Shown: positions 1,626 through 64,000 of the stretch, piece by piece | How the letters are laid out: every line of letters begins with the position of its first letter | Position numbering within the stretch: the stretch's first letter is position 1 | NCBI GenBank assembly: GCA_035771165.1 | Contig: JAWNZC010000296.1 | Span: 62,001 to 126,000, forward strand | Origin: Paragorgia papillata | Taxonomy: Eukaryota > Cnidaria > Anthozoa > Scleralcyonacea > Coralliidae | Direction of reading: 5' to 3' | DNA length: 64,000 nucleotides | Program-made: the position numbers and the translations under genes | Notes under the pieces: generated by a model | Told to the model about the DNA's origin: nothing | Databases searched by the model: none | Seen by the model: the letters and a program-made list of their open reading frames with translations, nothing else

Positions 1626-1735
1626 CTTATATCCATCAACGCCTCCAAGTTTAAGTTCAATTGGACTCCACCCCAAGACAGCATAGACAGAACCGAACTC
1701 CAGCACTCGGAATCCTTGTGGTGCTACCAACGGAG
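1626..1735 (-). CDS. Gene A exon 13: first half of FN3-3, last exon in window
   Basis: A 110-nt exon after TTCTTTCTCATTACAG, phase 1 in and 0 out with GTATAC donor. It encodes APLVAPQGFRVLEF, AVLGWSPIELKLGGVDGYK. Reading past the donor gives VYYSS and then a stop, so the splice is needed. Its phase fits exon 12, 4 kb away. The rest of the gene is beyond position 1. Confidence 0.8.
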
Positions 1736-13700: not shown

Positions 13701-13860
13701 TATCACCAGAATACGAGTGTCTTTGTTTATAAAGATGTAGCCATCTTGGTTATCTACAATATCTTTTTCATTTCCCTCACTGTCAATTTTCTTCCAAGTA
13801 TAAATAGGAACTGGGCTAGAAACAAGAAAAGTAGTTGTAGACTAAATCTGAGTGACCAAC

Positions 13861-13895
<35 letters not shown>

Positions 13896-17926: not shown

Positions 17927-18005
<79 letters not shown>

Positions 18006-21000: not shown

Positions 21001-24000
21001 GAAGGTGTCAAATAAATTTAGGGATAAAGTGGACGTTTTATTATGGATTTTATTAGGGATATCACAAGGAAGCTCGACATTAGAAATGTGATTGACATTT
21101 TCAATGAAAAGCCACGTCGCATCCCACTGCAGCAAGGCACTAATTGAGTAATTGGCATCCCCCCTGCACCCCCTTGGCCAAGGGCTAGGGGAGGTGCGCA
21201 CCCCCCCGCACCCCCCTGTAAATCCATCACTGGATAAATGTCAGAGATTTTTAGATGTTTAATTGAGGTAATTTGAAAATAAACATTTGTACAATATACA
21301 GTACTTACAAGTAAACTCCACTGTTGCATTTCTGCCAATAATAGTTCCCACAGGTGTCTCCATGTAAAACTGATAGATACCAGCATATTCTATAGTAGGC
21401 TTAACTGCAACACTCAGTCTTGTTGCATAGGGATTAAAAAAAGCTGGTTTGTAGTTTTCATCAATCTTATGTCCATTATGACGCCAGTGAAATTTCGAAC
21501 CAGCAACAGTATTTACTACAACCTGAAGGCCATAAAATTGTGATGTGAAGCCAGTGAAATCTTCCGCATCTTCAATAATTAATGGTACGATGTCCTGACC
21601 TGAAGTAAAAATACATGTATAATTAAAGACATGAGGCTGGTTGTGTAATTATTAAGGTAGTTTTAATTTTAACTATATCATATTTTACAACATACACAGT
21701 AATCGCGAAATGAATATAAGAGCCCAGCTCAAAATTTTAAAATGCAATACGTATACCATAACGAAAGGAAACCATTTAAAAAACAAAATATATTTATTGA
21801 CGTTTCGTTACTTAACTAGTAACATCTTCAGAATGACTTAAAGATTACATTGAATATACTTATATATAACATTAATATCTTACCAGGTGACAAATACAAA
21901 ACAGAAATGTGTGAAGATGTGATGAAAGATGAACATAATAAGATGAGGTGTGAAATAACATAAAAGGCAAAGAAAAAATAATAAAGATGACAAAAATAAA
22001 ATATATATCAAAACAACGAAAGTGGTATAGAGGAAATATTTTCATTTAGAGAAGGTCGAGATTTTGAAATGAGTAAGCTCTCGCGAAGAAGGAGTTCAAG
22101 ATTAGAGTTAGAACGAGAGAAAGATATAGTATGGTAAAGTCACTTGGTGAGATGTTGTGGTTTAGTTCGGTGGACAAGATGTTAGTGGTTAAGTAACGAA
22201 ACGTCAATAAATATATTTTGTTTTTAAATGGTTTCCTTTTTGCTCTTATATTCATTTTGCGATTACGGTTTCCGCCCGGTAAATCACTTGCTACGATTCT
22301 AACATACACAGTACATTAGGTCCGAATTAACGCTTCGCAAATCGCAAAGTTCTACAAAAAATTGTGAAGCTTATTTTTGAAAAATGTAGTGCAACGACTA
22401 ACATAGTATCTTCGTTAAGAACGTAAGGTAACATTTCAGAACATACTTTAGAGTGACTTCTTAGAAGCATGGCAGAACTTTTCTGAATATATCTAATTAA
22501 CTTCTTTGAATGTAGTGCAACTTCTCTGAATGAGTGAACGAAGCATAACTTCTGAACATAGAACGTGGCATATAAAGGCCTGGCCAAACGCTTTCAACAT
22601 TTCATTCAACATCGTTCAACATTGTTGAAAGCGTTTGCCTCCCCCCCCCCTGTTGAATGATGTTGAACGTTGTTGAATGGTGTTGAACGAAATTTGAACA
22701 TGTTCAAATTTTCGTTCAACACGCGTTCAACATTTCTATTCTCAAAATGTTGAAAGGTGTTGAACGCATTTGGCCACATTTCATTCAACTTTGTTGAACA
22801 GAGACATGCGCCATGCGGGATATTGTCGATTCCAGCTTTTGTGGTAGCCCGCGTTCAATTAATTGTCATTCATGAATGTTGAACGATGTTGAATTCATTT
22901 GGCCACTCGTGCTTTCAACATGATTCAACATCGTTCAACAATGTTGAATGATGTTGAATGCGATGTTGAAAGCGTTTGGCCAGGCCTTAACTTCTTTAAA
23001 TGTAGCAAAAACGTTTCTGAACGTAGCGCATAACGTCTTAGAACGTAGCGCAAACCTTTCTGATGGCAGTGTAACTTCCTCGAATAAAGCATAATCTTTC
23101 AGAATGTATGTAGCGTAACTTCTCGCAGTGTAACATTTTAAATGTAGCGTTAAATGTAGCATAATGTTTTAGAACATTGCATAATAATTTCCAACGTAGC
23201 ATATCGCCTCACAACGTACACGTAAAACAGTCATTTTTGTTTGACGCGTGCGATCACACCGCGCACATGCCAGCACGCGCACATGCCAGCACGCGCGCAA
23301 ACTCAACTAGGCGTGCTATTTGTCGCACGCGTGAAAGGCCATGTTCAATTAGTCATTCACCAGTGCTGTGAGTAACTTCGTTACAAGAAACTAGTTACAG
23401 TAACTAGTTACATTTTTAAGTAACTGTTACTGAAACTAGTTACTTTTGCTGAAGAAGTAACTGTAACTATAACTAGTTACTTTTTGAAGAATTAACTATA
23501 ACTATAGTTACTTTTTTCAAGAACTGTAACTAGTTACAGTATTTGGTTAAAAAATGTGACTATAGTTACTGATATTCAGTTGAGGATATCATTCTTTCTT
23601 GATAAAAATGGTTTTGATATAATAATAAAGGTACATTATGTACACATTTGACTATTTCTGTTTAGTGACAACTATATTTAGCTGTAAAAACATAATTATG
23701 GTACTGGCATCTAAAAACCAGTAATTTCTTTGTTGATTCTAGTAACACGGACAAAGGAATGTAACTTTGTAACTAGTTACAAAATTTTTGCAACTGTAAC
23801 TAGTTACTTTCTTAGTTTCTTGTCATTGTAACTTTTATCGGTAACTAGTTACTTTTCTAACGATGTAACTGTAACTGTAACTAGTTAAAAAAATTATGTA
23901 ACTTTTACAGCACTGTCATTGACATTGCAATTGTGAAAATGTGTGAAAGTTTCAGTAACGTCACAACGTCAGGTCTCACAACGTAAAGCAAGATCTCACA

Positions 24001-45597: not shown

Positions 45598-45652
45598 ATG
45601 AGAACATTTCTAGTCTTCGTGGTTGTGGTGACATGTGTATCGAAGTTAACAG
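45598..45652 (+). CDS. Gene B exon 1: signal peptide
   Basis: ATG at 45598 opens MRTFLVFVVVVTCVSKLT with a strong hydrophobic core, phase-1 donor GTGAGA. TTTTTTTAG right before GAGAAAGATG may be a 5'UTR acceptor. Same phase as gene A exon 1. Confidence 0.8.
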
Positions 45653-48600
45653 GTGAGATCACAGCAGGCCCGGACATTCGTTCTCTTTTCTCTTTTCCGA
45701 GTTTGTTATTATTATAGGAGACATGTAATCTTCGCCAGTGTAAGAGAAAAATCATATGTGGCGGTCGGCCCCTGGTCGCGGATACGAGGGTGACCGGATG
45801 GAATCACGGGTTGCGCTTTGGCAAGGCATAGCTCCCATCAGCCACCCGAGCCAGAGACATTGCTTAGTCACTTGGCCAGGGACGTGGCCAGGGACGTAGC
45901 CATGGCTAGCCGCGGCTCCCCCCCCCTTTTTGATATAAAACAACAGACATGTAACTACAAAACTGATGCAATATGACTAATTGTGTCAGGAAATAAACTG
46001 TAAACAGTGTATTCAATCTACTGAGTGTATGCATTTTGAGTATCTATGTGACGTTTGCATGTTTTGAGTATTTTATATGACGTTTTTTAACCTTCAGAGT
46101 CTGTAAAATCTTCCTCCAAAAGCCAGGAAATGGCATTTCAGCGACTCTCGATTTCAAAATTTCCCGTGGGGCATTCCCCCTAAAAATTTATTTTGATTTC
46201 GGCTCCCCCCCTTTCAAAATCCAGGCTACGTCCCTGCACTTGGCAGCGGGATGACTGTAGCTAAGGGCCTGTTTATAAGATCCCGGTGTACCGGGATGTA
46301 CCGGTGTACCGGGATCTCGGCTTATAGATAATTTACTGTTATTTTCCGAGTTACGTTTACATGGAATTGTCCATATAAACGCGACATCCCAGTAGACCGG
46401 GATGAAGTTTACTGAACTGCAATGCTCGTAACTTTGAATATTACGGTCAGAATTTCGTCCAAATGGTCAGGTCTAGAAACAAAGCGCTGAATAAAAGTGA
46501 AATAACTCCTAACATAGTGGAAATTAGGGTGAGTTTTTGCTTTTTTGCTCCATTTACTTAAATTCCCACGCTTTTTTGACCCAGGATGAAATTTATCCCG
46601 GGCAACCGGGACATCTCGGTATACCGTTAAGTTTGGCAATCTCCAGCATATCGGTACATTGGCAGGCATAGCACGATGACAGATAACACTGGTATCCCCT
46701 ACGAGTTGTTATCATCAGTGAAAAACTCAGCAAGTACAAAGACAACTGAATTGTTGATAGAATGGAGATATTTTTGAAAGGTGTGTTTACAACATGAAAG
46801 GTGTGCACACTGGAACGTAAAACACGAAAAACAGGCTCCCTAGGACAGATGTATTCTTGCTACAAGGGAGGTGTGTTTTTGAAAGGTGTGATCACAATGG
46901 AAGAGGTGTGTTCACAACACGAATGGTGCATGTTCAGAATACGAGAAGTGTGTTCATAATATGTACAAGAAGTCTGCTCACAATATGTACGAGAAGTGTG
47001 TTCACAATATGTACGAGAGGTGTGTTCACAATATGTACGATCGCGCGGTGTGTTCACAATACGAGAGGTGTATTCACAACACGAATGGTGCATGTTCAGA
47101 ATACGAGAGGTGTGTTCACAATATGTATGAGGTGTGTTCATAATATGAGAGGTGTGTTCACAATTTGAGAGGTGTGTTCACAATACCAGCGGTGCGTTCA
47201 TAATATGAGAGGTGTGTTCATAATATGAGAGGTGTATTCACAATACGAGAGGTGTGTTCATAATATGAGAGGTGTGTTCACAATACGAGAGGTGTGTTCA
47301 TAATATGAGAGGTGTATTCACAATACGAGAGGTGTGTTCATAATACGAGAGGTGTATTCACAATACGAGAGGTGTGTTCATAATATGAGAGGTGTGTTCA
47401 CAATACGAGAGGTGTGTTCATAATATGAGAGGTGTGTTCACAATTTGAGAGGTGTTCACAATACGAGAGGTGCGTTCATAATATGAGAGGTGTGTTCATA
47501 ATACGAGAGGTGTGTTCATAATATGAGAGGTGTATTCACAATACGAGAGGTGTGTTCATAATATGAGAGGTGTATTCACAATACGAGAGGTGTGTTCATA
47601 ATATGAGAGGTGTGTTCACAATACGAGAGGTGTGTTCATAATATGAGAGGTGTGTTCACAATATGAGAGGTGTGTTCACAATACGAGAGGTGTGTTCACA
47701 ATATGAGAGGTGTGTTCATAATATGAGAGGTGTGTTCATAATACGAGAGGTGTGTTTACAATTTGAGAGGTGTGTTCACAATACCAGCGGTGCGTTCATA
47801 ATATGAGAGGTGTGTTCATAATATGAGAGGTGTATTCACAATACGAGAGGTGTGTTCATAATATGAGAGGTGTGTTCACAATATGAGAGGTGTGTTCATA
47901 ATACGAGAGGTGTGTTCACAATACGAGAGGTGTGTTCATAATACGAGAGGTGTGTTCACAATACGAGAGGTGTGTTCATAATACGAGAGGTGTGTTCACA
48001 ATACGAGAGGTGTGTTCACAATACGAGAGGTGTGTTCACAATATGAGAGGTGTGTTCACAATACGAGAGGTGTGTTCACAATACGAGAGGTGTATTCACA
48101 ATATGAGAGGTGTGTTCACAATATGAGAGGTGTGTTCACAATACGAGAGGTGTGTTCATAATATGAGAGGTGTGTTCATAATATGAGAGGTGTGTTCACA
48201 ATACGAGAGGGGCATTCACAATATGAGGTGTGTTCACAATATGAGAGGTATATTCACAATGTGAGAGGTATATTCACAATACGAGAGGTGTATTCACAAT
48301 GTGAGAGGTGTATTCACAATGTGAGAGGTATATTCACAATGTAAGAGGTATATTCACAATACGAGAGGTGTATTCACAATGTGAGAGGTATGTTCCCAAT
48401 ACGATTTTGTTCGTCCTCTCATTAGCTACACCGCCGAAACTTGGTGAAAAGCAACCAGACTACACTGATTTTGCCGAACACTTTCGCTTGGTAAAGTGCA
48501 ACATTGAAGGAGATGACCTCACCTACGAGTGGTTTCACAACGGAATAAAACTTGAACCTACATCGTCTAAGTTTCTTTTCTACAGAAATTCTATTTTGCC

Positions 48601-48870
48601 AGCAGAAACAGTAACAGAGTATTATCAAGGAACGTATCAGTGTAAGGCATCCAATAAAGACGGCGCATTACTGGGACCTAAGATCAAGGTCGTCTTCTCA
48701 AGTATGTTTATACATATATATATTTACACACGCAGAGACAGACACAGTTACACATAGATATACACAGACATGCACGCATATATTTACACAGACAAAACAG
48801 ACAGACAGACAGACAAACAAACAAACAAACAAACAAACAAACAAACAAACAAACAAACAAACAGCAGAAC

Positions 48871-48935
<65 letters not shown>

Positions 48936-51900
48936 GACAGGCAGAGAGACAGACAGAAAGACACAGAGGAGCAGACTGACGGACACAGACACACTCGACA
49001 AACAAACAAACAAACAAACAAACTAAACACGGACGGAGGGACACACGCACAGACAATAACACACACAGAGACACGAAAGCAGGCACTATACTCACTCACT
49101 CACTCACTCACTCACTCACTCACTCTCACTCACTCACTCACTCACTCACTCACTCACTCACTCACTCACTCACTCACTCACTCACTCACTCACCCTCCTA
49201 CCAGAGCGCCGAGTTGAGGCCGGGTAGGAGGTTGACACTGACACACATCTATCTACAACCATCCAACAATTTCATCTTATAAATACGACTTCAATATTTT
49301 GTAATTAACATTTCAGTTGTTGGAGCGTTTAACAAATCCGACAGTGTTCTTGAAACAAAGGATGCAACGGTTGGCAAAGATTTGAGGTTGGTCTGTCCCC
49401 CCCGTACCTTCTCCCGCAATGTCTTCTACCACTGGGGAGGACGGCAAGTTGTCACGGGGGCGTGGTTCATTTCGTCAAAGCAGCACTATATGATTATGGA
49501 AGACGGATCGTTGCTGTTTGCCAATGTGAAAGATGAAGATCTAGAGTTCTTTAATGTCGACAAGAACGGAGTCAGTTGTAGTATGGAGTCCAAGGGAAAG
49601 ACAAAACGACTAACTTTTTCACAGAGATTTTTGCTCAAGGAAATTGGAGGTAAGTGTCTGGGTAAGGTATGCCGGTATAAAGGTATGTACGAGTAAGGAA
49701 TTATTAAAATGCCGCCGCTTGGACGAGGATTGCCGGTGTTTATGCGAGGTGTGACGGTTTCCGTTATGGTCTGAAGAATGGCAGTGATTGGGTGTTTAGG
49801 TTTTTCTTTTCTTTCTATTATATTTCTTTCGTTTCGTCTCCTTTCCTTTCTTTCCCCTCCTTTTCTTTCTGTTGCTTTCTCTTCTTTCTTTCCTTCTTTC
49901 TTTCCTTCTTTCTTTCCTTCCTTCCTTCCTTCCTTCCTTCCTTTCTCCCTTCCTTCCTTTCTTCCTTTTTTCCTTCCTTCCTTCCTTCCTTCCATCCTCC
50001 CTCCCTCCCTTTTTATTTTCCTTCCTTCCTTCCTTCCTTCCTTCCTTCCTTCCTTCCTTCCTTCCTTCCTACTTCATTTGTTTTCTTCTTTCCTTTCTTT
50101 TCTTCTTTCCTTTCTTTCGCTTCTTTTGCCCTCTTTTGCATTTCGATCACCAGTGCAAACGGCCCGGGCTACAATGTATTTATCAAACATGTCTAATAGT
50201 CTGTCCACGCTTTCCTTAGCAAGAAACACGGTTCCTTTTGGTCCAACTATACAAACCGAGCTTAAGGACAGAGAAGTGGTTAAAGGAACAGAGTTTGTCA
50301 TTTTACGTTGTGGAGCTGTTGGACTGTAAGTTATTCATTCTACCAAAATCTCTAGATCTATCCCTACCCCTACCTCTATTCCTCCCTCCCCTCCATGTCC
50401 ATGTCCATACCCATGTCCATGTCTATGTCTATGTCTATGTCTATCTATGTCTATGTCCATGTCCATGTCTATCTATGTCTATGTCTGTCTATGTCTATGT
50501 CCATGTCCATGTCTATCTATGTCTATGTCTATGTCTGTCTATGTCTGTCTATGTCCATGTCCATGTCCATGTCCATGTCCATGTCCATGTCCATGTCTAT
50601 CTATGTCTATGTCTATGTCTGTCTATGTCCATGTCCATGTCTATGTCCATGTCCATGTCCATGTCCATGTCTATGTCCATGTCTATGTCTATCTATGTCT
50701 ATGTCTGTGTCCATGTCTATGTCCATGTCCATGTCTATGTCTATGTCTATCTATGTCTATCTATGTCTGTGTCTATGTCTATGTCTGTGTCCATGTCTGT
50801 GTCCATGTCTGTGTCCATGTCTGTGTCCATGTCTATATCCATCTATGTCTGTGTCCATGTCTATGTCCATGTCCATGTCCATGTCCATGTCCATGTCCAT
50901 GTCCATGTCCATGTCCGTGTCCGTGTCCGTGTCCGTGTCCGTGTCTATGTCTATGTCTATGTCTATGTCTATGTCTGTCTATGTCTGTCTATGTCTATGT
51001 CTGTCTATGTCTATGTCTGTCTATGTCTGTCTATGCCTATGTCTATCTATGTCCAAGTCCATGTCTGTCCATGTCCATGTCCATGTCCATGTCCATGTCT
51101 ATGTCCGTGTCCGTGTCTGTGTCTGTGTCTATGTCTATGTCTGTGTCTATGTCTGTGTCCATGTCTATGTCTGTCTGTCTATGTCCGTGTCCGTGTCCGT
51201 GTCCGTGTCCATGTCCGTGTCCATGTCCGTATCCATGTCCGTGTCCGTATCCATGTCCGTGTCCATGTCCATGTCCATATCCGTGTCCGTGTCCATGTCC
51301 ATGTCTATGCCTATGCCTATGTCTATGTCTATGCCCATGTCCATATGTCTGCCTCACACAGTATCATATAGTGGCGTGTGTAAGGGTGCGTGAGATGCCA
51401 CTTTGTGCAAACCGGATCGTAGCCGTGGGCTAGTAACGTATTGCAGTCAATCATTGCGTGTGTTCGTCAAATTTAATCATAGTTAATAGAACTTATACAT
51501 GGTTTGGAAACCCGTCCAAATCATTGTTCTATGTTTTTGTTCAAGTTTATGGAAATTTGTGCAACTTCACGGTGTTGTATTTTCTGTATAATTAAGTTAT
51601 GAAGCAGTAATCCAATAGCAACGATCGGGTTTAATTAGTGTAGTCCTTCATCGTCACGTGTTGTGGTGCTTTATCGTCAAGTGTCCATAGAAATTACTTC
51701 CATATATGGAACTCTATTGTCTTTCAACATCACTTCATGTTGAAAGACAATGGAGCTTCCAAACCATGTATACGTTATATTACTATGATATAATTTACTT
51801 TAAACATATGTAATAATGGAGTACTTTCAGTGATCATCAACGTTTGTTTTTTCCTTGCCCATTTCATTTTTCAGTCCAACGCCAAATTATTCGTGGACAA

Positions 51901-54900
51901 TCACTGGTTTGAATGGCATTGAAAGGCCAATCATCAATGGCCAAGATGGGTATAAACTTCAGGACTTTAATCATGTTTTAATGATCGAATCAGTCGATAC
52001 GAAACACGATGGTTGGTACAAATGTAAAGCTAAGAGCAATTATGGAGGGAGCGAGCACACTGATGAAGTGAAAGGCAGGATTTCGGTGAAAGGTAAGAGA
52101 ATGAATGAATGAACTAAATGAAGGAAACGACGCATATATGCAAGGCTTTAAAAATATATTGGTACATGGTTAGACAGAAGAACAGAGGAATGCGAGGTTG
52201 GTCGACTGTTTGGTTGTTCACTGTGTTGATGGATGGAAAGGGATGAATGAACGGACGGATAAACGAACGAGCTGACGGAGAAAAGAAGATACGAAAAGGA
52301 AGAAAAGAGGAATGGGAAGAAGGGATGAATAGAATGAATAAAACAATAAATGAATGTAGGTAGGAACGAAGGAAGCATAGATGGGTGGATGATTGGGTGG
52401 AGAGAAAAAATAAGGGGAGAAGAAAGGAAGGATGGAGGGGAGGAAGGCAGGAGAGCAGGAAGGCAGGAAGGAAGGAAGGAAGGAAGGAAGGAAGGAAGGA
52501 AGGAAGGAAGGAAGGAAAGGAAAGGAAAGGAAAGGAAGGAAGGAAGGGAAAGAAGGAAGGGAAGGGAAGGGAAGGGAAGGACAGACAGGCAGACGGAAAG
52601 AAATAAGGAAGAAACAAAGCACAGAAGGAATGCAAGAAAGGTTTTATAAGAGCTGAATGAAAAATATCTTAAAACTAGGAAAGTAATGAGCACAGAAACG
52701 AATGACCAACTGACAGACTACTTTAGAATGATATATGTACTATTAAAAAAGATGCGTTTATTCAAAAAGATCGATATCCGTGTTTACTCCTAGGAAAACC
52801 TCAGTGGGCTCCAGAAGGTGAACTCTCCGATGCTTCCCCAACTGAGGGAAGTGGTTTCAAATGGTCTTGCAAAGCTTTTGGCAATCCAGATCCTTCCTAC
52901 ACCTGGCTGTTGAGCGGAGTGAAACTATCAAGCACGTATGACCACTTTAATACTTTATTGTTAACATGACAGCATAAACTACTTATGAACAATAAACTGA
53001 AAAGAACAGAGACAGAGAGAAACAGAGAGAGAAAGACGCAACGAGTAAGACAAGGAAGAACAGAGACAGAAAGAGATATAAATGGATCAGGTACAGAAAG
53101 ACAGAGGGACAGTGAGACAGAACGAGAGGGACAGAGAAAGAGAAAAAGGAACAGAGGGGAACAAAGAATAACAGAGAGAGACAAAGAGGAACCGGTGGGC
53201 GACAAAGTGGAACAGGGGGGACAAAGAGGAACAGAGGGGGACAAAGTGGAACCAGTGAGCTCTATATACAACTGGAGTGATATCTGCTGTTCATTCACCG
53301 GGCGAAGATTGAAGCCAAACATGGCGGACATGTAAGCCTGAAGTACGTATAGTTCCATTCTCCTACGCGGTCATTGATCAAATTCGACTTGACCAAACCG
53401 CGTAGAAGACTGGAACTATACGTACTTCAGGCCTACATGCCGGCAAGTTGTCCGCCACAAAGATATCACTCCAGTTATATATAGATCTCACTGAGCGGAA
53501 CAGAGGGGGGACAAAGTGGAACAAGGGGGAGGGGGGGGGCGCAAAGAGGGACAGAGGGGGACAGAGGAACAGAGGGGAAGAAAGAAGAACAGAGAGAGAC
53601 AAAGAGGAATCGATGGGGGGCAAAGTGGAACAGAGGGGGGACAAAGTGGAACAGAGGGGGGGACAAAGTGGAACAGAGGGGGACAAAATGGAACAGAGGG
53701 GGGACAAAGTGGAACAGAGGGGGGGACAAAGTGGAACCGCGGGGACAAACAGGAACAGAAGGGGACAAAGTGGAACAGAGGGGGGACAAAGTGGAACAAA
53801 GGGGGCAAAATGGAACAAAGGGGGACAAAGTGGAACAGAGGGAGGACAAAGTGGAACAGGGGGACAAACAGGAACAGAGGGGGAGAAAGTGGAACAGAGG
53901 GGGACAAACAGGAACACAGGGGGGACAACGGGGAATAGAGGAGGACAAAGAGGAACAGAAAGAGAAAGAGACAACGAGGAACAGATTAGTTAAGTTGTAT
54001 GTAAGTTAGATCCGTGTCTGGGGCTTAGAAACATTTTGTAAGTATTTGGCCTTTACTCGCACATGTACCAATGTACTACTACAAGTATACGTGGCACTCT
54101 TAACATTTATATTAATTTGCAGCTTCACATGTTTTCTCACCTAGGGATTCATACAACATTGATGGTGGGGACATAACTTTCAAGTCGATTTCAAAAGACA
54201 ATCAGGGTCTTTACCAATGCATTGTGGAGAATAATTTCGGTCATATTTCTTCGTCAGCGGTATTGAAAGTATTGACACGTAAGTTGAACTATAGCTTTCC
54301 TAAAAGAGTTTTTTTTTATCGGGTCAAGTTATTGGTTTAATGCTAAACTCGTGATTTGATTATGATTAGCGCGCACATACCCTTGTCTGGCTAAGTAATA
54401 AGTGACGAGTTTCAAGACACATGACAATGTGTTTCACTGTTCAGAAATAGAATAAAGTTCAACTTAGTGCAATGGACCTTTTCACCAATAGCGGTGCCAT
54501 CTTTAATTCGCAATGCATTAGGTAACAAGCCCAATTGTTATATACCAAAGAATTTCTTTTGCCAAAGATGAAATCTTATTGGTCAAATCATGGTCACGTG
54601 TTGTTCAACAAACTCAATGTTTCTTTCTGCCAAGGGAAACATTGCAATGTATCCCACTGAAGTCAACAATGAAGAAGGAAACAGTGCAATGTTTTCCTCT
54701 GACGTCAGCTTTAATCATGCGTTGTGCACGTGAATACACAATGATTATTGCATCAGATCAAGAACTTTGGACTCTTCGGAGCATTTTGAAAACAAGAGCT
54801 TGTTTCGAGCTTGTCTGGTACGAAATAGTCCATTTTCCTAAAGAAAGAATATCTATACATATCTTCAAAGAAGGTATGGAGAAAACCTGGAGAAATTTAT

Positions 54901-57783
54901 AGCCGAGTTTTTTGAACAAATTTCGAGGTGTTTGGATATCCTGACGAAGCACTCTTCATCATTTGTGTTTGATATAGCATCTCAAACAAATCGGTATTTT
55001 AAGAGAAAATCGAGGTGAAAGTTAATTTATGTAATTTCTTCCTTCAATATTCATGCAAACTAACAATGATTTCCTTTGTACAGTTTTCCTCATGAATTAC
55101 TAACGAGTTTGAAATGTTGACATAATTCGTTTTGATTGGTTTATTTACCGCGAGTACTTGTCGCGAGTAAAAAATAGTTCAAGATTTCCAACTATCTGCC
55201 ACGAGCGCTAAAATACTCGAAGCGAGCTTGCGAGTGCTCACAGGAAGTTGCTTCGTGCGAGGACTGGAAATCCGCCTTTTTAGGCTGGCTGCCCGCGACA
55301 GCAATTAAGAATTAAGAACACCGATGCCAATTTGAACTAATAACAGTATGCGTGTATTTCTGTTTCAGCTCCTGTTCTTTTGGACTCGCGAAAATGCAAC
55401 GTGTCGAAAATGAACCTGATGTTCTTGGTCGATGGCTCCGGAAGTGTACCCTCCAGCGCTTTTAAAGAATTCAAACGATTTATGCAACTGCTGGTCAAGA
55501 AGTTTGTCGTCGGTCCAGAAGCCACCCACGTCGGCGTGCTGCAGTACTCGAGTAAGGTGAGGACTGGACCCGAGTTTGCAATTGGGGAGCATCAAACAAT
55601 GAAGGCAGTTCAAGACGCTATCTCCAAAGTGAGGTATCACTACGGAGCTTACACATTTGGTGGATATGCCATGAGAATGGCTAAAGAGGTAAGGATAATG
55701 TATGCAGATATTTAGTGAGGATAATGTATGCAGATATTTAGCAAGGATAATGTATGCAGATATTTAGTAAGAATAATGTATGCAGATATTTAGTAAGGAT
55801 AATGTATGCAGATATTTAGTAAGAATAATGTATGCAGATATTTAGTAAGGATAATGTATGCAGATATTTAGTAAGAATAATGTATGCAGATATTTAGTAA
55901 GGATAATGTATGCAGATATTTAGTAAGAATAATGTATGCAGATATTTAGTAAGGATAATGTATGCAGATATTTAGTAAGAATAATGTATGCAGATATTTA
56001 GTAAGGATAATGTATGCAGATATTTAGTAAGGATAATGTATGCAGATATTTAGTAAGGATAATGTATGCAGATATTTAGTAAGGATAATGTATGCAGATA
56101 TTTAGTAAGGATAATGTATGCAGATATTTAGTAAGGATAATGTATGCAGATATTTAGTAAGAATAATGTATGCAGATATTTAGTAAGGATAATGCATGCA
56201 GATATTTAGTAAGGATAATGTATGCAGATATTTAGTAAGGATAATGCATGCAGATATTTAGTAAGGATAATGTTTGCAGATATTTAGTAAGGATAATTTA
56301 TGCAGATATTTATTAAAATAGTTAAGGCTAATGTATGCAGATATTTATTAAAATAATTAAGGATAATTTATGCAGATATTATTTAAATAAATAGGGATAA
56401 TTTACGTAGAAATGAGCAAAGATAATGTATGCAAATATTTAAAATAATTAAGGATAATGTATGCAGAAATGAATAAGGATAATGTATGCAGATATTTAGT
56501 AAGGATAATGTATGCAGATATTTAGTAAGGATAATGTATGCAGATATTTAGTAAGGATAATGTTATGCAGATAATTAGTAAGAATAATGTATGCAGATAT
56601 TTAGTAAAGATAATGTATGCAGATATTTAGTAAGGATAATGTATGCAGATATTTAGTAAGAATGTATGCAGATATTTAGTAAGGATAATGAATGTATGCA
56701 GATATTTAGTAAGGATAATGAATGTATGCAGATATTTAGTAAGGATAATGTATGCAGATATTTAGTAAGAATGTATGCAGATATTTAGTAAGGATAATGA
56801 ATGTATGCAGATATTTAGTAAGGATGTTTGCAGATATTTAGTAAGGATAATGATGCAGATATTTATTAAAATAGTTAAGACTAATGTATGCAGATATTTA
56901 TTAAAATAATTAAGGATAATTTATGCAGATATTATTTAAAGAAATAGGGATAATTTATGTAGAAATGAGTAAAGATAATGTATGCAAATATTTAAAATAA
57001 TTAAGGATAATGTATGCAGAAATGAATAAGGATAATATGTACGCAGATATTTATTAAAATAATTACGGTTAAGGTACACAGAAATGAGTAAGGATAATAT
57101 ATACAGAAATGAGTAAGGATAATGAATGCAGTAATGAGTAAGGATAATAAATGCAGTAATAAGTAAGGATAATGAATGCAGTAATGAGTAAGGATAATAA
57201 ATGCAGAAATAAGTAAGGATAATGAATGCAGAAATGAGTAAGGATAATGTATGCAGAAATGAGTAAGGATAATGAATGCAGTAATGAGTAAGGATAATAA
57301 ATGCAGAGATAATGCAGAAATGAGAAAGGATAATTGTGAGCAGATATTTATTTAAATGAGTAAAGAAAATGTATGCAGATATTTAGTAAGAATAACGTAA
57401 CAAACGAATTAACTACAAAAGATGTTACTTTTTCATTTTAAGTATTCTTTCAAATAAGTCAAGACAAAAAAGTCTTGAATAGAACATTTAAGAACACACA
57501 TGTATCCACATACGCTCATCCGCTTATCACCTTTCAGTTAATGGATGATTACAATCGTCGAGATGCAAAGAATGTAATGGTATTTCTCATGGACGATGGC
57601 ACATGGGACAAAAGATTAGCAAGAAAGCTTTCGAAAACATTGAGAAATTCGGGAACACAGATTATCATTCTGGATTTACAGAAAATGAAAATAATGCACG
57701 ACATCGCTGACAAAGGTTTGGAATTCACAACTGAGAAGTTGGAAGAGAACGTTGAAGAAGTGGCAACAGAGATCTGTGCATGA
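45598..57783 (+). CDS. Gene B: secreted L1-type Ig1-4 plus VWA protein (9 exons, 609 aa)
   Basis: Predicted secreted adhesion or matrix protein. Exons 45598-45652, 48426-48701, 49317-49649, 50220-50325, 51875-52092, 52794-52935, 54145-54278, 55369-55688 and 57538-57783 splice in frame to 610 codons including TGA. Domains: signal peptide 1-18; Ig1 about 19-110 (Cys43, Trp54, Cys91); Ig2 111-221; Ig3 222-329; Ig4 330-421; VWA 430-609. MIDAS residues are visible: DGSGS at 443-447, the Thr in AYTFGG, and Asp in FLMDDG. Cys431 and Cys608 flank the VWA domain and could pair. There is no membrane helix or GPI tail. Ig1-Ig4 are most like the L1 family and paralogous to gene A; in L1 proteins these four domains form the adhesive horseshoe. 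A VWA domain with MIDAS normally binds ligand through a divalent metal. Poly(A) signal at 58107. Alternative: matrilin-like or other IgSF matrix proteins, but Ig2 favours L1. Confidence 0.85.
45877..46236 (-). mobile_element. hAT-like miniature element with shared core (copy 5)
   Basis: Starts CAGGGACGTGG (terminal 12-mer duplicated as CAGGGACGTAGCC at 45889), ends GGCTACGTCCCTG, perfect 8-bp duplication CACTTGGC (45869-45876, 46237-46244). The shared core is on the minus strand at 46100-46200 (complement of AAAAGCCAGGAAATGGCATT). Confidence 0.85.
46266..46842. repeat. Possible TIR element with GGGCCTGTTT ends
   Basis: TAA|GGGCCTGTTTATAAGATCC at the left and AAAACAGGCTCCC|TAG at the right. 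CCGGTGTACCGGGAT motifs recur near both ends. Similar ends and TAA flank to family H1. Confidence 0.4.
46868..48408 (+). repeat. 20-bp minisatellite GAGAGGTGTGTTCACAATAC
   Basis: About 75 copies of a 20-bp unit with two main variants (TTCACAATACGA and TTCATAATATGA) that alternate in runs, giving higher-order blocks. A block around 47170-47240 recurs near 47760-47850. It lies in intron 1 of gene B. Confidence 0.95.
48426..48701 (+). CDS. Gene B exon 2: Ig1 domain
   Basis: A 276-nt phase 1-1 exon, acceptor CCTCTCATTAG, donor GTATGT. Carries LVKCNIEGDDLTYEWFHNG and YYQGTYQCKASNKDGA, a complete Cys-Trp-Cys set. The EYYQGTYQCKASN segment resembles YEGxYQCxAxN of L1-family Ig1. Confidence 0.9.
48779..49196. 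repeat. (ACAG)n, (ACAA)n and (CTCA)n arrays
   Basis: Tetranucleotide blocks in intron 2 of gene B: ACAG/ACAA at 48798-49022, then (CTCA)n at 49090-49192. Frames on both strands are artefacts. Confidence 0.95.
49317..49649 (+). CDS. Gene B exon 3: Ig2 domain
   Basis: A 333-nt phase 1-1 exon, acceptor TTAACATTTCAG, donor GTAAGT. Shows LRLVCPPRTFSRNVFYHWGG, EDGSLLFANVKDEDLEFFN and VSCSMES. SLLFANV is the L1-type Ig2 signature. Equal in length to gene A exon 3. Confidence 0.9.
49800..50130. repeat. (CTTC)n array
   Basis: Pyrimidine-rich CTTC/CTTT/CTCC repeat in intron 3. It forms an extended pyrimidine tract upstream of exon 4. Long frames across it are spurious. Confidence 0.95.
50220..50325 (+). 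CDS. Gene B exon 4: first half of Ig3
   Basis: A 106-nt exon, phase 1 in and 2 out, acceptor CGCTTTCCTTAG, donor GTAAGT. Encodes RNTVPFGPTIQTEL and EFVILRCGAVG; gene A exon 4 has FGPKIVTSL and TLVCAATG. An upstream CACCAG at 50153 is a less suitable acceptor. Confidence 0.8.
50389..51350. repeat. (TCYATG)n hexanucleotide satellite
   Basis: About 160 copies of TCCATG/TCTATG/TCTGTG/TCCGTG in intron 4, starting 60 bp after exon 4. Open in all three plus frames (up to 377 codons) because a six-base unit lacks stops. Confidence 0.95.
51490..51775. repeat. Inverted-repeat element about 285 bp
   Basis: ATACATGGTTTGGAA at 51495 and TTCCAAACCATGTATAC at 51756. An inner hairpin around ATTGTCTTTCAACATCACTTCATGTTGAAAGACAAT. 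Confidence 0.6.
51875..52092 (+). CDS. Gene B exon 5: second half of Ig3
   Basis: A 218-nt exon, phase 2 in and 1 out, acceptor TTTTTCAG, donor GTAAGA. Encodes PTPNYSWTITGLNG and KHDGWYKCKAKSNYGG. Homologous to gene A exon 5. Confidence 0.9.
52430..52580. repeat. (GGAA)n array
   Basis: Purine tetranucleotide repeat in intron 5 of gene B; surrounding AATGAATG/GGATGA sequence is also simple. Confidence 0.95.
52794..52935 (+). CDS. Gene B exon 6: first half of Ig4
   Basis: A 142-nt exon, phase 1 in and 2 out, acceptor TTTACTCCTAG, donor GTATGA. Encodes KPQWAPEG and FKWSCKAFGNPDPSYTWLLS. It is the last exon not included in the downstream duplication, so it could splice to either 3' cassette. 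Confidence 0.9.
53000..53250. repeat. AGAGAC/GAACAG purine-rich repeats
   Basis: Irregular AGACAGAGA blocks grading into GGGGGACAAAGTGGAACAGA units, the start of the array interrupted by the fold-back at 53254. Confidence 0.8.
53254..53492. repeat. Fold-back element, family F3 copy 2
   Basis: Ends AGTGAGCTCTATATA and TATATAGATCTCACT with long arms (ATATCACTCCAGTT, CCGCCA, TACGTATAGTTCCA, CGCGGT). Inserted inside the G-rich minisatellite. Confidence 0.85.
53493..53975 (+). repeat. 20-bp G-rich minisatellite GGGGGACAAAGTGGAACAGA
   Basis: About 20 copies, G-runs of 3-9 at a spacing of 15-20 nt. Open on both strands as low-complexity frames. The downstream duplicate starts within this array (53556 corresponds to 59420). 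Confidence 0.95.
54145..54278 (+). CDS. Gene B exon 7: second half of Ig4
   Basis: A 134-nt exon, phase 2 in and 1 out, acceptor TTTTCTCACCTAG, donor GTAAGT. Encodes DSYNIDGGDITFKSISKDNQ and GLYQCIVENNFG. Exactly duplicated at 60009-60142. Confidence 0.9.
54895..55115. repeat. Dispersed repeat in intron 7
   Basis: GTTTGGATATCCTGACGAAGCACTC and TCAAACAAATCGGTATTTTAAGAG, then CCTCATGAATTACTAACGAG, are an inverted match to 24065-24340 in gene A intron 1. Also present in the second cassette at 60760-60982. The rest of intron 7 (54279-55368) has no array. Confidence 0.6.
55369..55688 (+). CDS. Gene B exon 8: VWA domain, first part with MIDAS
   Basis: A 320-nt exon, phase 1 in and 0 out, acceptor TTCTGTTTCAG, donor GAG|GTAAGG. 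Encodes MNLMFLVDGSGSVPSSAF, THVGVLQYSS and GAYTFGGYAMRMAKE. DxSxS and the distal Thr are the MIDAS ligands. Its donor is the first unit of the 26-bp minisatellite; read-through hits TAG after eight codons. Confidence 0.9.
55689..57400 (+). repeat. 26-bp minisatellite of donor-like units (intron 8)
   Basis: Units start GTAAGGATAATG and end CAGATATTTA, beginning exactly at the splice donor of exon 8. About 24 regular copies to 56290, then mixed copies with variants (AAATGAGTAAGGATAATG) to 57390. Nearly every unit keeps GTAAGG or GTAAGA. Confidence 0.95.
57538..57783 (+). CDS. Gene B exon 9: VWA domain, C-terminal part and stop
   Basis: A 246-nt terminal exon, phase 0 in, acceptor ATCACCTTTCAG. 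Encodes NVMVFLMDDGTWDKRLARKL, GTQIIILDLQKMK and VEEVATEICA then TGA. VMVFLMDDG is the betaD strand with the third MIDAS Asp. Confidence 0.9.
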   Translation, partial: LMDDYNRRDAKNVMVFLMDDGTWDKRLARKLSKTLRNSGTQIIILDLQKMKIMHDIADKGLEFTTEKLEENVEEVATEICA

Positions 57784-58106
57784 TTGGTCCTAAGATGATT
57801 GCACACATCGTTTCATGGTTTCATCGTTATATTCAGAGTAAAAAGGAACAAAAAAGAAAAAATGTCATTCAGTTTGAAAGCACAGATCCTCCTTAAATAT
57901 ATGTTAATTCTTGTTAATTCGAATCATTGACCTACATATAACTATAGCTAGCGTGGCGGACCTATTTTTTGGGAGCTGAATACAGTTCTCGATTTGGTCC
58001 ATTCACGTTTCTTTAATTGCTACAATGTTGTGCTAAATTTATGTATAATAACTCCATTCTTAAATAGAAATATATTATTAGGTTTTTTGTCTTACTCAGA
58101 TCTTAC

Positions 58107-58112
58107 AATAAA
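58107..58112 (+). terminator. Poly(A) signal of gene B
   Basis: AATAAA 324 bp after the stop codon, followed by GTTCGACTTGTCATTGCT. It is the first AATAAA after the stop. Copy at 63979-63984. Confidence 0.6.
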
Positions 58113-58128
58113 GTTCGACTTGTCATTG

Positions 58129-59419
58129 CTACTGATTTTAGTGCGGCGACGACATGCAAATGTTTGCCGTTTCCACCAAAACGAAAATGACGTGATTTCA
58201 TTCTCTGGTTGTACATGAACACATTGCTGGTGGATGCTTGCTGTTAAAAATTGCCCTAAGACCCTCATTTCGGTCTTTGAAAGCACGCGTGTGTCGCTGT
58301 TATTAGTCGGCTGTTATTCTAAAATACCACACGTTCGTAGATATTATTAGTCGGTTTTCCTTATTTCTTGTATTTTCTTTATCTTATTGGTAATTTGTCC
58401 TACAAACAATGCACGTAGCCTAGTTTCTAGGCCTTTCGTTTCCGTCATGTGCTTGGCCGTGTAGTCGGTTTGGGTTCTTGGGAAGACTGGGGAGAGGCTG
58501 GAAACGAGAAGGCCTAGAGACTAGGCTACAATGCACGTAGGTTTTGTCGACGCATTCGTACAGTTTAAAATGCAGAAAAATAACGATATTAAATAGCAAA
58601 GCTTTCCCTGATCGCCATATTTGTTTACGTTTGAATTCTCTTTGAAAATCCCGCGAAATTTCTACTTCCGGTAGACCACTGACGCATGTGCAGACAGATT
58701 TCCCTGCTGTTGGCTCTGCCAACAAACTCGATCTTCGCCCCAAGTTTGGGGAGAGTCAGTCAGGTTTTGAACTGGTCAAGCAAGTTGTAGTTTATGAGCA
58801 CCCGCAAACAGGAAAATAGCAAGTAACGCGTTAGAGCCTGGGCCCAAAATAGTATCTTGGCAACCGTTCACGCGTGCTCAAAAAGAAATATCGAGTTTGT
58901 TGGCAGAATGGCAGAGCCCACTTTCCCCCGAAGCCTGTGTAAGTCGGAAAGGGGCTCTGATTCGCAGGGTAGGTACCTACATGACGTGACGTAGATTAAA
59001 GGACGTTTCTCCCAGTGTAATATGCATGACATGTAACAGATGTGTTGTTTTTGGGTGTTCAAACGAATCGAATTTGAAGAGAGAAAATTTTACATCATGT
59101 TGCTCGGTCCCAGGTCTCTTTAATTTGCGCTTTTTTCTTACTAAAAGCCATATTTAAATGTCAATATCTTCGAATAAGCCATTTGCATGATGACGTGAGA
59201 TGGCGTTGGGTGATTACAACTACCAGAATGCTTTGCCAGTATTCTAGGGTTTCGGCTAAAAGGGATGACTCAACAGAACCCGTCCAGTCCTTTCGCGGCT
59301 TTTCCAAAATATGTCGTCAAAATTTGTTTTTCCAAATTTGTTGTCAAGTTTCAGCGAGTCTCGACATTTTAGCAATCTTCTCGATACCCTAACCACAACA
59401 TAAACCCTAATCCTAATCA
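58129..59419. other. Unique spacer between the two cassettes
   Basis: Holds a hairpin at 58417-58528 (TAGCCTAGTTTCTAGGCCTT and complement) and a family F2 repeat at 59195-59405 that ends in AAACCCTAATCCTAATC exactly at the duplication junction. No exon seen. Confidence 0.6.
59195..59405 (+). repeat. Dispersed repeat (family F2), copy 3
   Basis: Matches 4766-4912 and, inverted, 5455-5640. Its right end abuts the left breakpoint of the second cassette. Confidence 0.7.
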
Positions 59420-60008
59420 GGGGGACAGAGGAACAGAGGGGAAGAAAGAAGAACAGAGAGAGACAAAGAGGAATCGATGGGGGGCAAAGTGGAACAGAGG
59501 GGGGACAAAGTGGAACAGAGGGGGGGACAAAGTGGAACAGAGGGGGACAAAATGGAACAGAGGGGGGACAAAGTGGAACAGAGGGGGGGACAAAGTGGAA
59601 CCGCGGGGACAAACAGGAACAGAAGGGGACAAAGTGGAACAGAGGGGGGACAAAGTGGAACAAAGGGGGCAAAATGGAACAAAGGGGGACAAAGTGGAAC
59701 AGAGGGAGGACAAAGTGGAACAGGGGGACAAACAGGAACAGAGGGGGAGAAAGTGGAACAGAGGGGGACAAACAGGAACACAGGGGGGACAACGGGGAAT
59801 AGAGGAGGACAAAGAGGAACAGAAAGAGAAAGAGACAACGAGGAACAGATTAGTTAAGTTGTATGTAAGTTAGATCCGTGTCTGGGGCTTAGAAACATTT
59901 TGTAAGTATTTGGCCTTTACTCGCACATGTACCAATGTACTACTACAAGTATACGTGGCACTCTTAACATTTATATTAATTTGCAGCTTCACATGTTTTC
60001 TCACCTAG

Positions 60009-60142
60009 GGATTCATACAACATTGATGGTGGGGACATAACTTTCAAGTCGATTTCAAAAGACAATCAGGGTCTTTACCAATGCATTGTGGAGAATAATT
60101 TCGGTCATATTTCTTCGTCAGCGGTATTGAAAGTATTGACAC
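60009..60142 (+). CDS. Second cassette, exon 7': Ig4 second half
   Basis: Identical to exon 7, including acceptor and donor. Its phase-2 acceptor can only be used from an exon such as gene B exon 6, so it is either an alternative exon of gene B or a dead copy. Confidence 0.6.
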
Positions 60143-61234
60143 GTAAGTTGAACTATAGCTTTCCTAAAAGAGTTTTTTTTTATCGGGTCAAGTTATTGGT
60201 TTAATGCTAAACTCGTGATTTGATTATGATTAGCGCGCACATACCCTTGTCTGGCTAAGTAATAAGTGACGAGTTTCAAGACACATGACAATGTGTTTCA
60301 CTGTTCAGAAATAGAATAAAGTTTCAACTTAGTGCAATGGACCTTTTCACCAATAGCGGTGCCATCTTTAATTCGCAATGCATTAGGTAACAAGCCCAAT
60401 TGTTATATACCAAAGAATTTCTTTTGCCAAAGATGAAATCTTATTGGTCAAATCATGGTCACGTGTTGTTCAACAAACTCAATGTTTCTTTCTGCCAAGG
60501 GAAACATTGCAATGTATCCCACTGAAGTCAACAATGAAGAAGGAAACAGTGCAATGTTTTCCTCTGACGTCAGCTTTAATCATGCGTTGTGCACGTGAAT
60601 ACACAATGATTATTGCATCAGATCAAGAACTTTGGACTCTTCGGAGCATTTTGAAAACAAGAGCTTGTTTCGAGCTTGTCTGGTACGAAATAGTCCATTT
60701 TCCTAAAGAAAGAATATCTATACATATCTTCAAAGAAGGTATGGAGAAAACCTGGAGAAATTTATAGCCGAGTTTTTTTGAACAAATTTCGAGGTGTTTG
60801 GATATCCTGACGAAGCACTCTTCATCATTTGTGTTTGATATAGCATCTCAAACAAATCGGTATTTTAAGAGAAAATCGAGGTGAAAGTTAATTTATGTAA
60901 TTTCTTCCTTCAATATTCATGCAAACTAACAATGATTTCCTTTGTACAGTTTTCCTCATGAATTACTAACGAGTTTGAAATGTTGACATAATTCGTTTTG
61001 ATTGGTTTATTTACCGCGAGTACTTGTCGCGAGTAAAAAATAGTTCAAGATTTCCAACTATCTGCCACGAGCGCTAAAATACTCGAAGCGAGCTTGCGAG
61101 TGCTCACAGGAAGTTGCTTCGTGCGAGGACTGGAAATCCGCCTTTTTAGGCTGGCTGCCCGCGACAGCAATTAAGAATTAAGAACACCGATGCCAATTTG
61201 AACTAATAACAGTATGCGTGTATTTCTGTTTCAG

Positions 61235-61554
61235 CTCCTGTTCTTTTGGACTCGCGAAAATGCAACGTGTCGAAAATGAACCTGATGTTCTTGGTCGATG
61301 GCTCCGGAAGTGTACCCTCCAGCGCTTTTAAAGAATTCAAACGATTTATGCAACTGCTGGTCAAGAAGTTTGTCGTCGGTCCAGAAGCCACCCACGTCGG
61401 CGTGCTGCAGTACTCGAGTAAGGTGAGGACTGGACCCGAGTTTGCAATTGGGGAGCATCAAACAATGAAGGCAGTTCAAGACGCTATCTCCAAAGTGAGG
61501 TATCACTACGGAGCTTACACATTTGGTGGATATGCCATGAGAATGGCTAAAGAG
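61235..61554 (+). CDS. Second cassette, exon 8': VWA first part
   Basis: Same translation as exon 8, with MIDAS DGSGS intact and the donor again the first 26-bp unit. No disabling change. Confidence 0.6.
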
Positions 61555-63240
61555 GTAAGGATAATGTATGCAGATATTTAGTGAGGATAATGTATGCAGA
61601 TATTTAGCAAGGATAATGTATGCAGATATTTAGTAAGAATAATGTATGCAGATATTTAGTAAGGATAATGTATGCAGATATTTAGTAAGAATAATGTATG
61701 CAGATATTTAGTAAGGATAATGTATGCAGATATTTAGTAAGAATAATGTATGCAGATATTTAGTAAGGATAATGTATGCAGATATTTAGTAAGAATAATG
61801 TATGCAGATATTTAGTAAGGATAATGTATGCAGATATTTAGTAAGAATAATGTATGCAGATATTTAGTAAGGATAATGTATGCAGATATTTAGTAAGGAT
61901 AATGTATGCAGATATTTAGTAAGGATAATGTATGCAGATATTTAGTAAGGATAATGTATGCAGATATTTAGTAAGGATAATGTATGCAGATATTTAGTAA
62001 GGATAATGTATGCAGATATTTAGTAAGAATAATGTATGCAGATATTTAGTAAGGATAATGCATGCAGATATTTAGTAAGGATAATGTATGCAGATATTTA
62101 GTAAGGATAATGCATGCAGATATTTAGTAAGGATAATGTTTGCAGATATTTAGTAAGGATAATTTATGCAGATATTTATTAAAATAGTTAAGGCTAATGT
62201 ATGCAGATATTTATTAAAATAATTAAGGATAATTTATGCAGATATTATTTAAATAAATAGGGATAATTTACGTAGAAATGAGCAAAGATAATGTATGCAA
62301 ATATTTAAAATAATTAAGGATAATGTATGCAGAAATGAATAAGGATAATGTATGCAGATATTTAGTAAGGATAATGTATGCAGATATTTAGTAAGGATAA
62401 TGTATGCAGATATTTAGTAAGGATAATGTTATGCAGATAATTAGTAAGAATAATGTATGCAGATATTTAGTAAAGATAATGTATGCAGATATTTAGTAAG
62501 GATAATGTATGCAGATATTTAGTAAGAATGTATGCAGATATTTAGTAAGGATAATGAATGTATGCAGATATTTAGTAAGGATAATGAATGTATGCAGATA
62601 TTTAGTAAGGATAATGTATGCAGATATTTAGTAAGAATGTATGCAGATATTTAGTAAGGATAATGAATGTATGCAGATATTTAGTAAGGATGTTTGCAGA
62701 TATTTAGTAAGGATAATGATGCAGATATTTATTAAAATAGTTAAGACTAATGTATGCAGATATTTATTAAAATAATTAAGGATAATTTATGCAGATATTA
62801 TTTAAATAAATAGGGATAATTTATGTAGAAATGAGCAAAGATAATGTATGCAAATATTTAAAATAATTAAGGATAATGTATGCAGAAATGAATAAGGATA
62901 ATATATGCAGATATTTAAAATAATTAAGGATAATGTATGCAGAAATGAGTAAGGATAATGTATGCAGAAATGAGTAAGGATAATGTATGCAGAAAAAAGT
63001 AAGGATAACGTAAGCAGAAATAAGGATAATAAATGCAGAAATGAGTAAGGATAACGTAAGCAGAAATAAGGATAATAAATGCAGAAATGAGTAAGGATAA
63101 TGTATGCAGAAATAAGTAAGGATAATGAATGCAGAAATGAGTAAAGATAATAAATGCAGAGATAATGCAGAAATGAGAAAGGATAATTGTGAGCAGATAT
63201 TTATTTAAATGAGTAAAGATAATGTATGCAGATATTTAGT
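61555..63240 (+). repeat. 26-bp donor-like minisatellite, copy 2
   Basis: Unit-by-unit match to 55689-57000, then different unit order at 62880-63170 (AAATGAGTAAGGATAACGTA variants), showing independent rearrangement since duplication. Confidence 0.9.
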
Positions 63241-63391
63241 AAGAATAATTGTAACAAACGAATTAACTACAAAAGATGTTACTTTGTAATTTTAAGTATT
63301 CTTTCAAACAAGTCAAGACAAATAAGTCTTGAATAGAAAATTTAAGAACACACATGTATCCACATACGCTCATTCTCTTATCACCTTTCAG

Positions 63392-63637
63392 TTAATGGAT
63401 GATTACAATCGTCGAGATGCAAAGAATGTGATGGTATTTCTCATGGACGATGGCACATGGGACAAAAGATTAGCAAGAAAGCTTTCGAAAACATTGAGAA
63501 ATTCGGGAACACAGATTATCATTCTGGATTTACAGAAAATTAAAATAATGCACGACATCGCTGACAAAGGTTTGGAATTCACAACTGAGAAGTTGGAAGA
63601 GAACGTTGAAGAAGTGGCAACAGAGATCTGTGCATGA
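63392..63637 (+). CDS. Second cassette, exon 9': VWA end and stop
   Basis: Open, same length as exon 9, one amino-acid difference (Met to Ile in LDLQK[M/I]KIM) and a silent change near the start. The stop is conserved. Confidence 0.6.
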   Translation, partial: LMDDYNRRDAKNVMVFLMDDGTWDKRLARKLSKTLRNSGTQIIILDLQKIKIMHDIADKGLEFTTEKLEENVEEVATEICA

Positions 63638-63978
63638 TTGCTCCTAAGATGATTGGACACATCGTTTCATGGTTACATCGTTTCATGGTTTCATCGTTAT
63701 ATTCAGAGTAAAAAGGAACAAAAAAGAAAAAATGTCATTCAGCTTGAAAGCACAGATCCCCCTTAATAAATATATATGTTAATTCTTGTTAATTCAAATC
63801 ATTGACCTACATATAACTATAGCTAGCGTGGCGGACCTATTTTTTGGGAGCTGAATACAGTTCTCGATTTGGTCCATTCACGTTTCTTTAATTGCTACAA
63901 TGTTGTGCTAAATTTATGTATAACTCCATTCTTAAATAGAAATATATTATTAGGTTTTTTGTCTTACTCAGATCTTAC

Positions 63979-63984
63979 AATAAA
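63979..63984 (+). terminator. Poly(A) signal of second cassette
   Basis: AATAAA in the same context as 58107-58112. An 18-bp duplication (ACATCGTTTCATGGTT) and small indels separate the two 3'UTRs. Confidence 0.55.
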
Positions 63985-64000
63985 GTTCGACTTGTCATTG

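Follow-up and report, generated by a model that had tools for sequence, protein, structure and literature searches.

The gene at 45598-57783 on the forward strand of the window (the whole stretch of 64,000 nucleotides that was analysed) would encode a secreted octocoral adhesion protein in which an L1-derived Ig1-4 unit is joined to a MIDAS-bearing VWA domain and which acts as a soluble adaptor. As a whole, this statement has in our estimate a probability of roughly 0.55. The anatomy and the origin of the gene, as read from sequence, are highly probable; the mechanism, a soluble adaptor between cells and matrix, is put forward tentatively. The Ig-VWA gene (gene B) is a genuine, conserved protein-coding gene. 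Its nine exons, separated throughout by GT-AG introns, were rebuilt from the DNA as follows:

Exon 1: 45598..45652, forward strand; start codon and signal-like peptide (aligns with the N-termini of three orthologs)
Exon 2: 48426..48701, forward strand; Ig1, C43-C91 (rebuilt model and alignment of four)
Exon 3: 49317..49649, forward strand; Ig2, C137-C198 (rebuilt model and alignment of four)
Exon 4: 50220..50325, forward strand; first half of Ig3 (model, Pfam, alignment of four)
Exon 5: 51875..52092, forward strand; second half of Ig3 (model, Pfam, alignment of four)
Exon 6: 52794..52935, forward strand; first half of Ig4 (model, Pfam, alignment of four)
Exon 7: 54145..54278, forward strand; second half of Ig4 (model, Pfam, alignment of four)
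Exon 8: 55369..55688, forward strand; first half of VWA with DGSGS, the MIDAS Thr and Cys431 (model, Pfam, PDB, alignment)
Exon 9: 57538..57783, forward strand; second half of VWA with the MIDAS Asp (D547), Cys608 and the stop (model and alignment)

The joined coding sequence of 1,830 nt is open and gives a product of 609 aa followed by a stop, with splice phases 1,1,1,2,1,2,1,0. A phase-consistent gene of nine exons had been proposed in the first-pass annotation; that model was rebuilt exactly, and its spliced product is matched along the full length by the orthologs described below. The protein consists, in order, of a signal-like N-terminus, Ig1, Ig2, Ig3 (C252-C307), Ig4 (C355-C402), a short linker, the VWA domain and the stop. 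A Pfam search of the 609-aa product, which the first-pass annotation had advised as a check, gave scores above the curated cut-offs for Ig_3, I-set and VWA (85.5 bits for VWA against a cut-off of 23.8) and found neither FN3 nor Bravo_FIGEY. The MIDAS residues are D443, S445, S447, T517, and D547, where T517 and D547 presumably play the roles that we assigned to them from the integrin I domains; Cys431 and Cys608 flank the domain. Secretion was judged by eye from both ends of the protein, and no hydrophobic segment was found by eye in the last 30 residues. Pfam and the sequence thereby agree with the domain plan suggested earlier, i.e., a signal-like start, four Ig domains, a MIDAS VWA with its flanking cysteines, and no membrane segment. 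The introns hold long minisatellites, at about 46868-48404 (20-base units), 50328-51370 (units of about 12 bases), and 55533-57399 (26-base units).

A homolog search with the Ig-VWA protein against 5.8 billion proteins returned 10, three of which cover 99-100% of the query (best E value 3.9e-260). These are P0001 (62% identity, 607 aa), encoded on a contig of 2,551 nt, and two proteins that are both filed as 'contactin-5-like', P0002 from Dendronephthya gigantea (61% identity, 610 aa) and P0003 from Xenia sp. Carnegie-2017 (52% identity, 612 aa); the hosts of the latter two are octocorals, and by these relatives the genome analysed here probably belongs to an octocoral too. The ends of all three fall within a few alignment columns of the start and end of the Ig-VWA protein, and VWA was absent among the domains listed for the other seven proteins returned. 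Because a contig of 2,551 nt is far below the 12 kb of the gene, that of P0001 is most likely a spliced transcript. All three orthologs have Ig and VWA domains above the Pfam cut-off and lack FN3 and Bravo_FIGEY, and their C-termini are not hydrophobic. All four proteins agree without exception at D443, S445, S447, T517, and D547, at the eight cysteines of the Ig domains, and at Cys431/Cys608. Searching with a profile built from this alignment gave 11 proteins, with VWA only in P0001-P0003; since such a search requires shared five-letter words and a similar length, absence elsewhere is suggestive. On these predicted proteins, the Ig-VWA plan is common to Dendronephthya and Xenia.

The architecture had been described in the first-pass annotation as unfamiliar. 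This holds insofar as no published description was found, but three other deposited proteins share the plan. The literature on octocoral, L1CAM, contactin, VWA, and Ig, searched mainly outside subscription journals, yielded no protein with L1 Ig1-4 plus VWA, and the available portions of PMC11959691, PMC7853314, PMC2597720, and PMC11999971 do not describe one. A predicted secreted Ig protein of L1 origin that ends in a VWA domain thus appears to be undescribed in print so far as we could find, while its predicted sequences are already deposited.

Two simple explanations of the gene model, a chance assembly of exons that do not belong together and the running together of two distinct genes, one Ig and one VWA, are rejected because of the full-length orthologs. 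The locus is rich in repeats and carries a head-to-tail duplication of 5.86 kb, which, together with the flanks, includes exons 7-9:

First tandem unit: 53555..59418, forward strand; exons 7-9 and flanks, 98.6% identical to 59419-65290
Second tandem unit: 59419..64000, continuing to 65290 outside the window, forward strand; second copies of exons 7-9
Second exon 7: 60009-60142, forward strand; identical
Second exon 8: 61235-61554, forward strand; identical
Second exon 9: 63392-63637, forward strand; two differences, one of them M to I

Aligned by megablast over 5,888 columns, the two units show 43 mismatches and 40 gap positions (98.6% identity), and 45 mismatches and 48 gap positions when 53555-59418 and 59419-65282 are aligned by MAFFT. 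The tandem may be genuine and of recent date, or it may result from a haplotype join, and the second copies of exons 7-9 could supply alternative ends. The first-pass annotation had overlooked this duplication, as well as the damaged exon of gene A and the VWA block behind that gene, both treated below. As haplotype joining can produce a tandem of such identity, the fused gene might be regarded as an artefact of annotation or assembly that unites an Ig gene with a VWA gene. We consider this extremely improbable: it is strongly contradicted by three separate full-length proteins, one of them on a transcript-sized contig, and the splice phases of the gene fit.

The Ig part finds its leading PDB sequence matches in contactin-1, -2, and -5 and neurofascin-155, followed by a DSCAM entry, contactin-4, and DCC, whereas the very top PDB match is collagen VI, via the VWA domain. 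In a tree of 18 Ig1-4 regions, which included four bilaterian L1 sequences and one contactin pair and left out hemolin, the four Ig-VWA proteins group together (98/99). Their clade is sister (100/100) to a clade (99/99) of three octocoral L1CAM-type proteins, P0012-P0014. Deeper in the tree, both octocoral clades side with the contactin pair rather than with the four bilaterian L1 sequences (93/91, with long branches), so that it is chiefly the Bravo_FIGEY tail of the sister clade that justifies the L1 label. The exon structure points in the same direction as the sisterhood. From Ig1 to the second half of Ig4, the exons of gene B and of gene A, an L1CAM-type gene in the window, measure 276/291, 333/333, 106/100, 218/209, 142/139, and 134/131 nt, respectively; all six pairs agree in length modulo 3 and the phases are equal. 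Sisterhood in the tree and matching exon phases make it very likely that gene B goes back to the 5' half of a gene of the L1CAM type, i.e., that Ig1-4 was taken as one unit from such a gene and joined to VWA.

The placement of the Ig domains in the L1/contactin group by the first-pass annotation was therefore sound, given that contactins and neurofascin-155 lead the PDB matches and the sister group in the tree consists of octocoral proteins with Bravo_FIGEY. It could be argued that the domains stem from contactins rather than from L1CAMs, since contactins are the top PDB matches in both sequence and fold, two orthologs bear the NCBI name contactin-5-like, and both octocoral clades side with the single contactin pair. 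This origin seems very unlikely to us in view of the 100/100 union of the four Ig-VWA proteins with octocoral proteins that have an L1-type Bravo_FIGEY cytoplasmic domain, and of the exon phases shared with gene A.

The first-pass annotation had also held that an adhesive horseshoe was captured as a unit. The tree and the exon phases support the unit; the horseshoe shape is only partly shown. In the structure model that the annotation had recommended, the Ig2-4 segment superposes on neurofascin at 3.9 A (281 residues), but the whole of Ig1-4 fits contactins at only 13-14 A, as Ig1 fails to superpose on the crystal horseshoe. Sidekick and DCC fit Ig1-4 of the model about as well as contactins do, and the extended Robo1 gives a fit of only 36-37 A. 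By VIA-align and Foldseek, the Ig1-4 regions of contactin, neurofascin, sidekick, and hemolin rank high. A second structure model made with fewer alignment rows was worse (mean pLDDT 52.3). The VWA part of the predicted model is of low confidence, and no VWA entry appears among the fold matches listed, which at such confidence carries no information on the fold of that part. Ig4 of horseshoe proteins has the motifs WxxN/D and Phi-Y/F/L-QC (PMC5045292). In Ig4 of the Ig-VWA protein, WLLS stands in place of the former, and the latter is kept as LYQC; across the four orthologs the two motifs are found in two and three sequences, respectively. In a horseshoe, Ig1 packs against Ig4 and Ig2 against Ig3 in antiparallel fashion; such a shape would be likely for Ig1-4 of the Ig-VWA protein.

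The closest PDB relatives of the VWA domain are collagen VI, VWF A, and the I domains of integrin alpha-1/2. A profile search of the genome with PF00092 gave at least 152 VWA matches, from which 150 candidates were scored. Many of these matches span only the first half of the domain, with clusters on contigs C396, C348, C314, and C13, pointing to many putative VWA genes in which the domain is split over two exons. In all four of the other VWA half-exons that were inspected by eye (two from L024, one from L025, and one from L026), a GT donor lies near the same place and in the phase of exon 8; because of these matching donors, the VWA domain of gene B probably came from a common two-exon cassette. 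Exons resembling Ig1-4 were found at none of 11 other VWA loci (eight of about 3.5 kb and three of 9.9 kb), the short ones of which could hardly reach them.

Gene B is accompanied on the contig by three L1CAM-type or L1-like genes (all positions in window coordinates):

Gene A: 1626..21599 in the window, reverse strand; L1CAM-type, Ig1 to FN3 exons, with a further exon and a VWA block at -1900 to -9815
Gene A'': -28349 to -61292; second L1CAM-type copy
Gene C: about 98000-117000, reverse strand; third L1-like gene, its pieces having 29-37% identity to gene A or P0012

In gene A, the Ig1 exon lies at 21599-21309, and the exons run down to an FN3 exon that ends at -2293. The joined reading of gene A (1,149 aa), which uses a weak acceptor at -1900 and a damaged exon and serves as a search aid rather than as a claimed protein, returned P0012, P0013, and P0014, and is 84% identical to P0012 over 84%. 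All three pass the Pfam cut-off for Ig, FN3, and Bravo_FIGEY, and by eye they contain a hydrophobic stretch of the membrane type. Two of them come from Dendronephthya: P0013, named as a fibronectin type III protein in its record, and P0014, named contactin-4-like. By their predicted domains they are L1CAM-type proteins with an ankyrin-type tail, which would place such proteins in a cnidarian lineage. P0002 and P0014 are listed with an equally long longest contig, 955,555 nt, and on this figure the Ig-VWA and L1CAM-type genes are probably linked in Dendronephthya, as they are here.

Compared with the otherwise near-identical copy A'', an FN3 exon of gene A is damaged at about -1820 to -1900 and has in-frame stops, because of which gene A may be decaying and a normal product from it at this locus appears doubtful. 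Gene A'' keeps FN5 and, near the contig end, a remnant of the tail exon, with single-base frame differences in two FN3 exons, and in gene C neither the end nor a transmembrane exon was recognised. The region -6613 to -10843, behind gene A, is homologous to the 3' end of gene B, including both VWA exons, in opposite orientation (91-96% identity in the main blocks). This block lies at the point beyond which P0012 goes on to FN5, a membrane segment, and the tail, and the phases would fit for splicing from FN4 of gene A to the copied VWA. The copied VWA exons show 11 differences in 540 positions against 63 in 1737 for the flanks, which is not significant (p = 0.07). One might speculate that the VWA 3' cassette spreads among neighbouring L1-type genes by segmental duplication, the locus repeatedly turning membrane L1CAMs into secreted VWA proteins; the conserved Ig1-4-VWA gene would have come first, and a later copy would have replaced the FN5-membrane-ankyrin end of gene A in a splice-compatible phase. 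We regard this scenario as distinctly unlikely. The proposal of the first-pass annotation that the Ig-VWA protein is a soluble partner or decoy for gene A finds no support, given the damaged FN3 exon and the failure to find FN5, membrane, and tail exons belonging to gene A within the 202 kb searched. As a role for the protein, a decoy for gene A is possible.

As to the origin of the Ig-VWA gene, the computations support a duplication, exon structure included, of the Ig1-4 portion of a gene of the L1CAM type; everything from Ig5 onward is absent, the membrane anchor and the ankyrin-type tail among it, and a two-exon VWA with intact MIDAS residues stands there instead. The product would be secreted. 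Its L1-type Ig1-4 unit may bind partners on the cell surface, L1-type or other, and its VWA domain may bind a second ligand via a metal ion, probably matrix or a glycoprotein, so that the protein would act as a two-ended soluble adaptor between cells and matrix. Two other roles deserve mention, each of which we hold to be unlikely. The protein might be an immune or opsonin molecule similar to hemolin, with a VWA domain that serves for docking and an Ig unit that either attaches to microbes or prevents homophilic adhesion; no immune context was seen, and the 18-region tree was built without hemolin. Alternatively, it might belong to the organic matrix of sclerites or mesoglea, where VWA would cross-link collagen and the Ig unit would hold cells. 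According to the accessible part of one study, the skeletal proteomes of four corals have three domains in common, of which VWA is one (PMC11959691), and the portion available of another reports a VWA protein without collagen repeats in the red-coral skeletome, with Ig-like domains in a figure legend (PMC7853314). However, the VWA carriers named in these portions are protocadherin, collagen, and fibrillin-2, with no Ig-VWA protein among them. Compared with both roles, the soluble adaptor is the reading that we prefer. The conserved proteins of Xenia and Dendronephthya would offer a route to test how a membrane adhesion receptor becomes a matrix or immune factor.

Among known systems, the L1CAM family (L1, neurofascin, NrCAM, neuroglian, and the octocoral P0012-P0014) shares with the Ig-VWA protein a sister Ig1-4, the exon phases of gene A, and the neighbourhood of L1-type genes. 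In place of the six Ig and several FN3 domains of that family, the Ig-VWA protein and all three orthologs have four Ig domains and no FN3; Ig5-6 are missing, as are the transmembrane segment and the FIGQY/FIGEY ankyrin-binding tail, which P0012-P0014 retain as Bravo_FIGEY, and a VWA end is present instead. Contactins have six Ig domains, four FN3 domains, and a GPI anchor. Although members of this family (CNTN1-6) provide the leading PDB matches for Ig1-4 and the NCBI name of two orthologs, the Ig-VWA protein lacks Ig5-6, FN3, an anchor, and a hydrophobic C-terminus, and membership in the contactins is rejected despite the name. Hemicentins are secreted and combine VWA with Ig, their VWA sitting at the N-terminus, ahead of a long array of Ig domains and of EGF modules; in the Ig-VWA protein, four L1-type Ig domains precede a VWA at the C-terminus, and this domain order rules out membership. 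The integrin alpha I domains, VWF A, and the VWA domains of collagen VI belong to the same VWA family with MIDAS DxSxS/T/D, but reside in other carriers and have low sequence identity to the domain described here, in which no residues specific for a ligand were recognised. Insect hemolin, according to the part of the source available, is secreted and akin to neural adhesion molecules, and its four Ig domains form a horseshoe (PMC9163686). The Ig-VWA protein, predicted to be secreted, is likewise built on four Ig domains, to which it adds a VWA domain. We know of no VWA domain in hemolin, and we infer that the two proteins are of separate origin. By analogy, hemolin may serve as the nearest working model; if our reading is true, octocorals made a soluble molecule of the hemolin kind from an L1-type adhesion gene and provided it with a metal-dependent adhesion domain.
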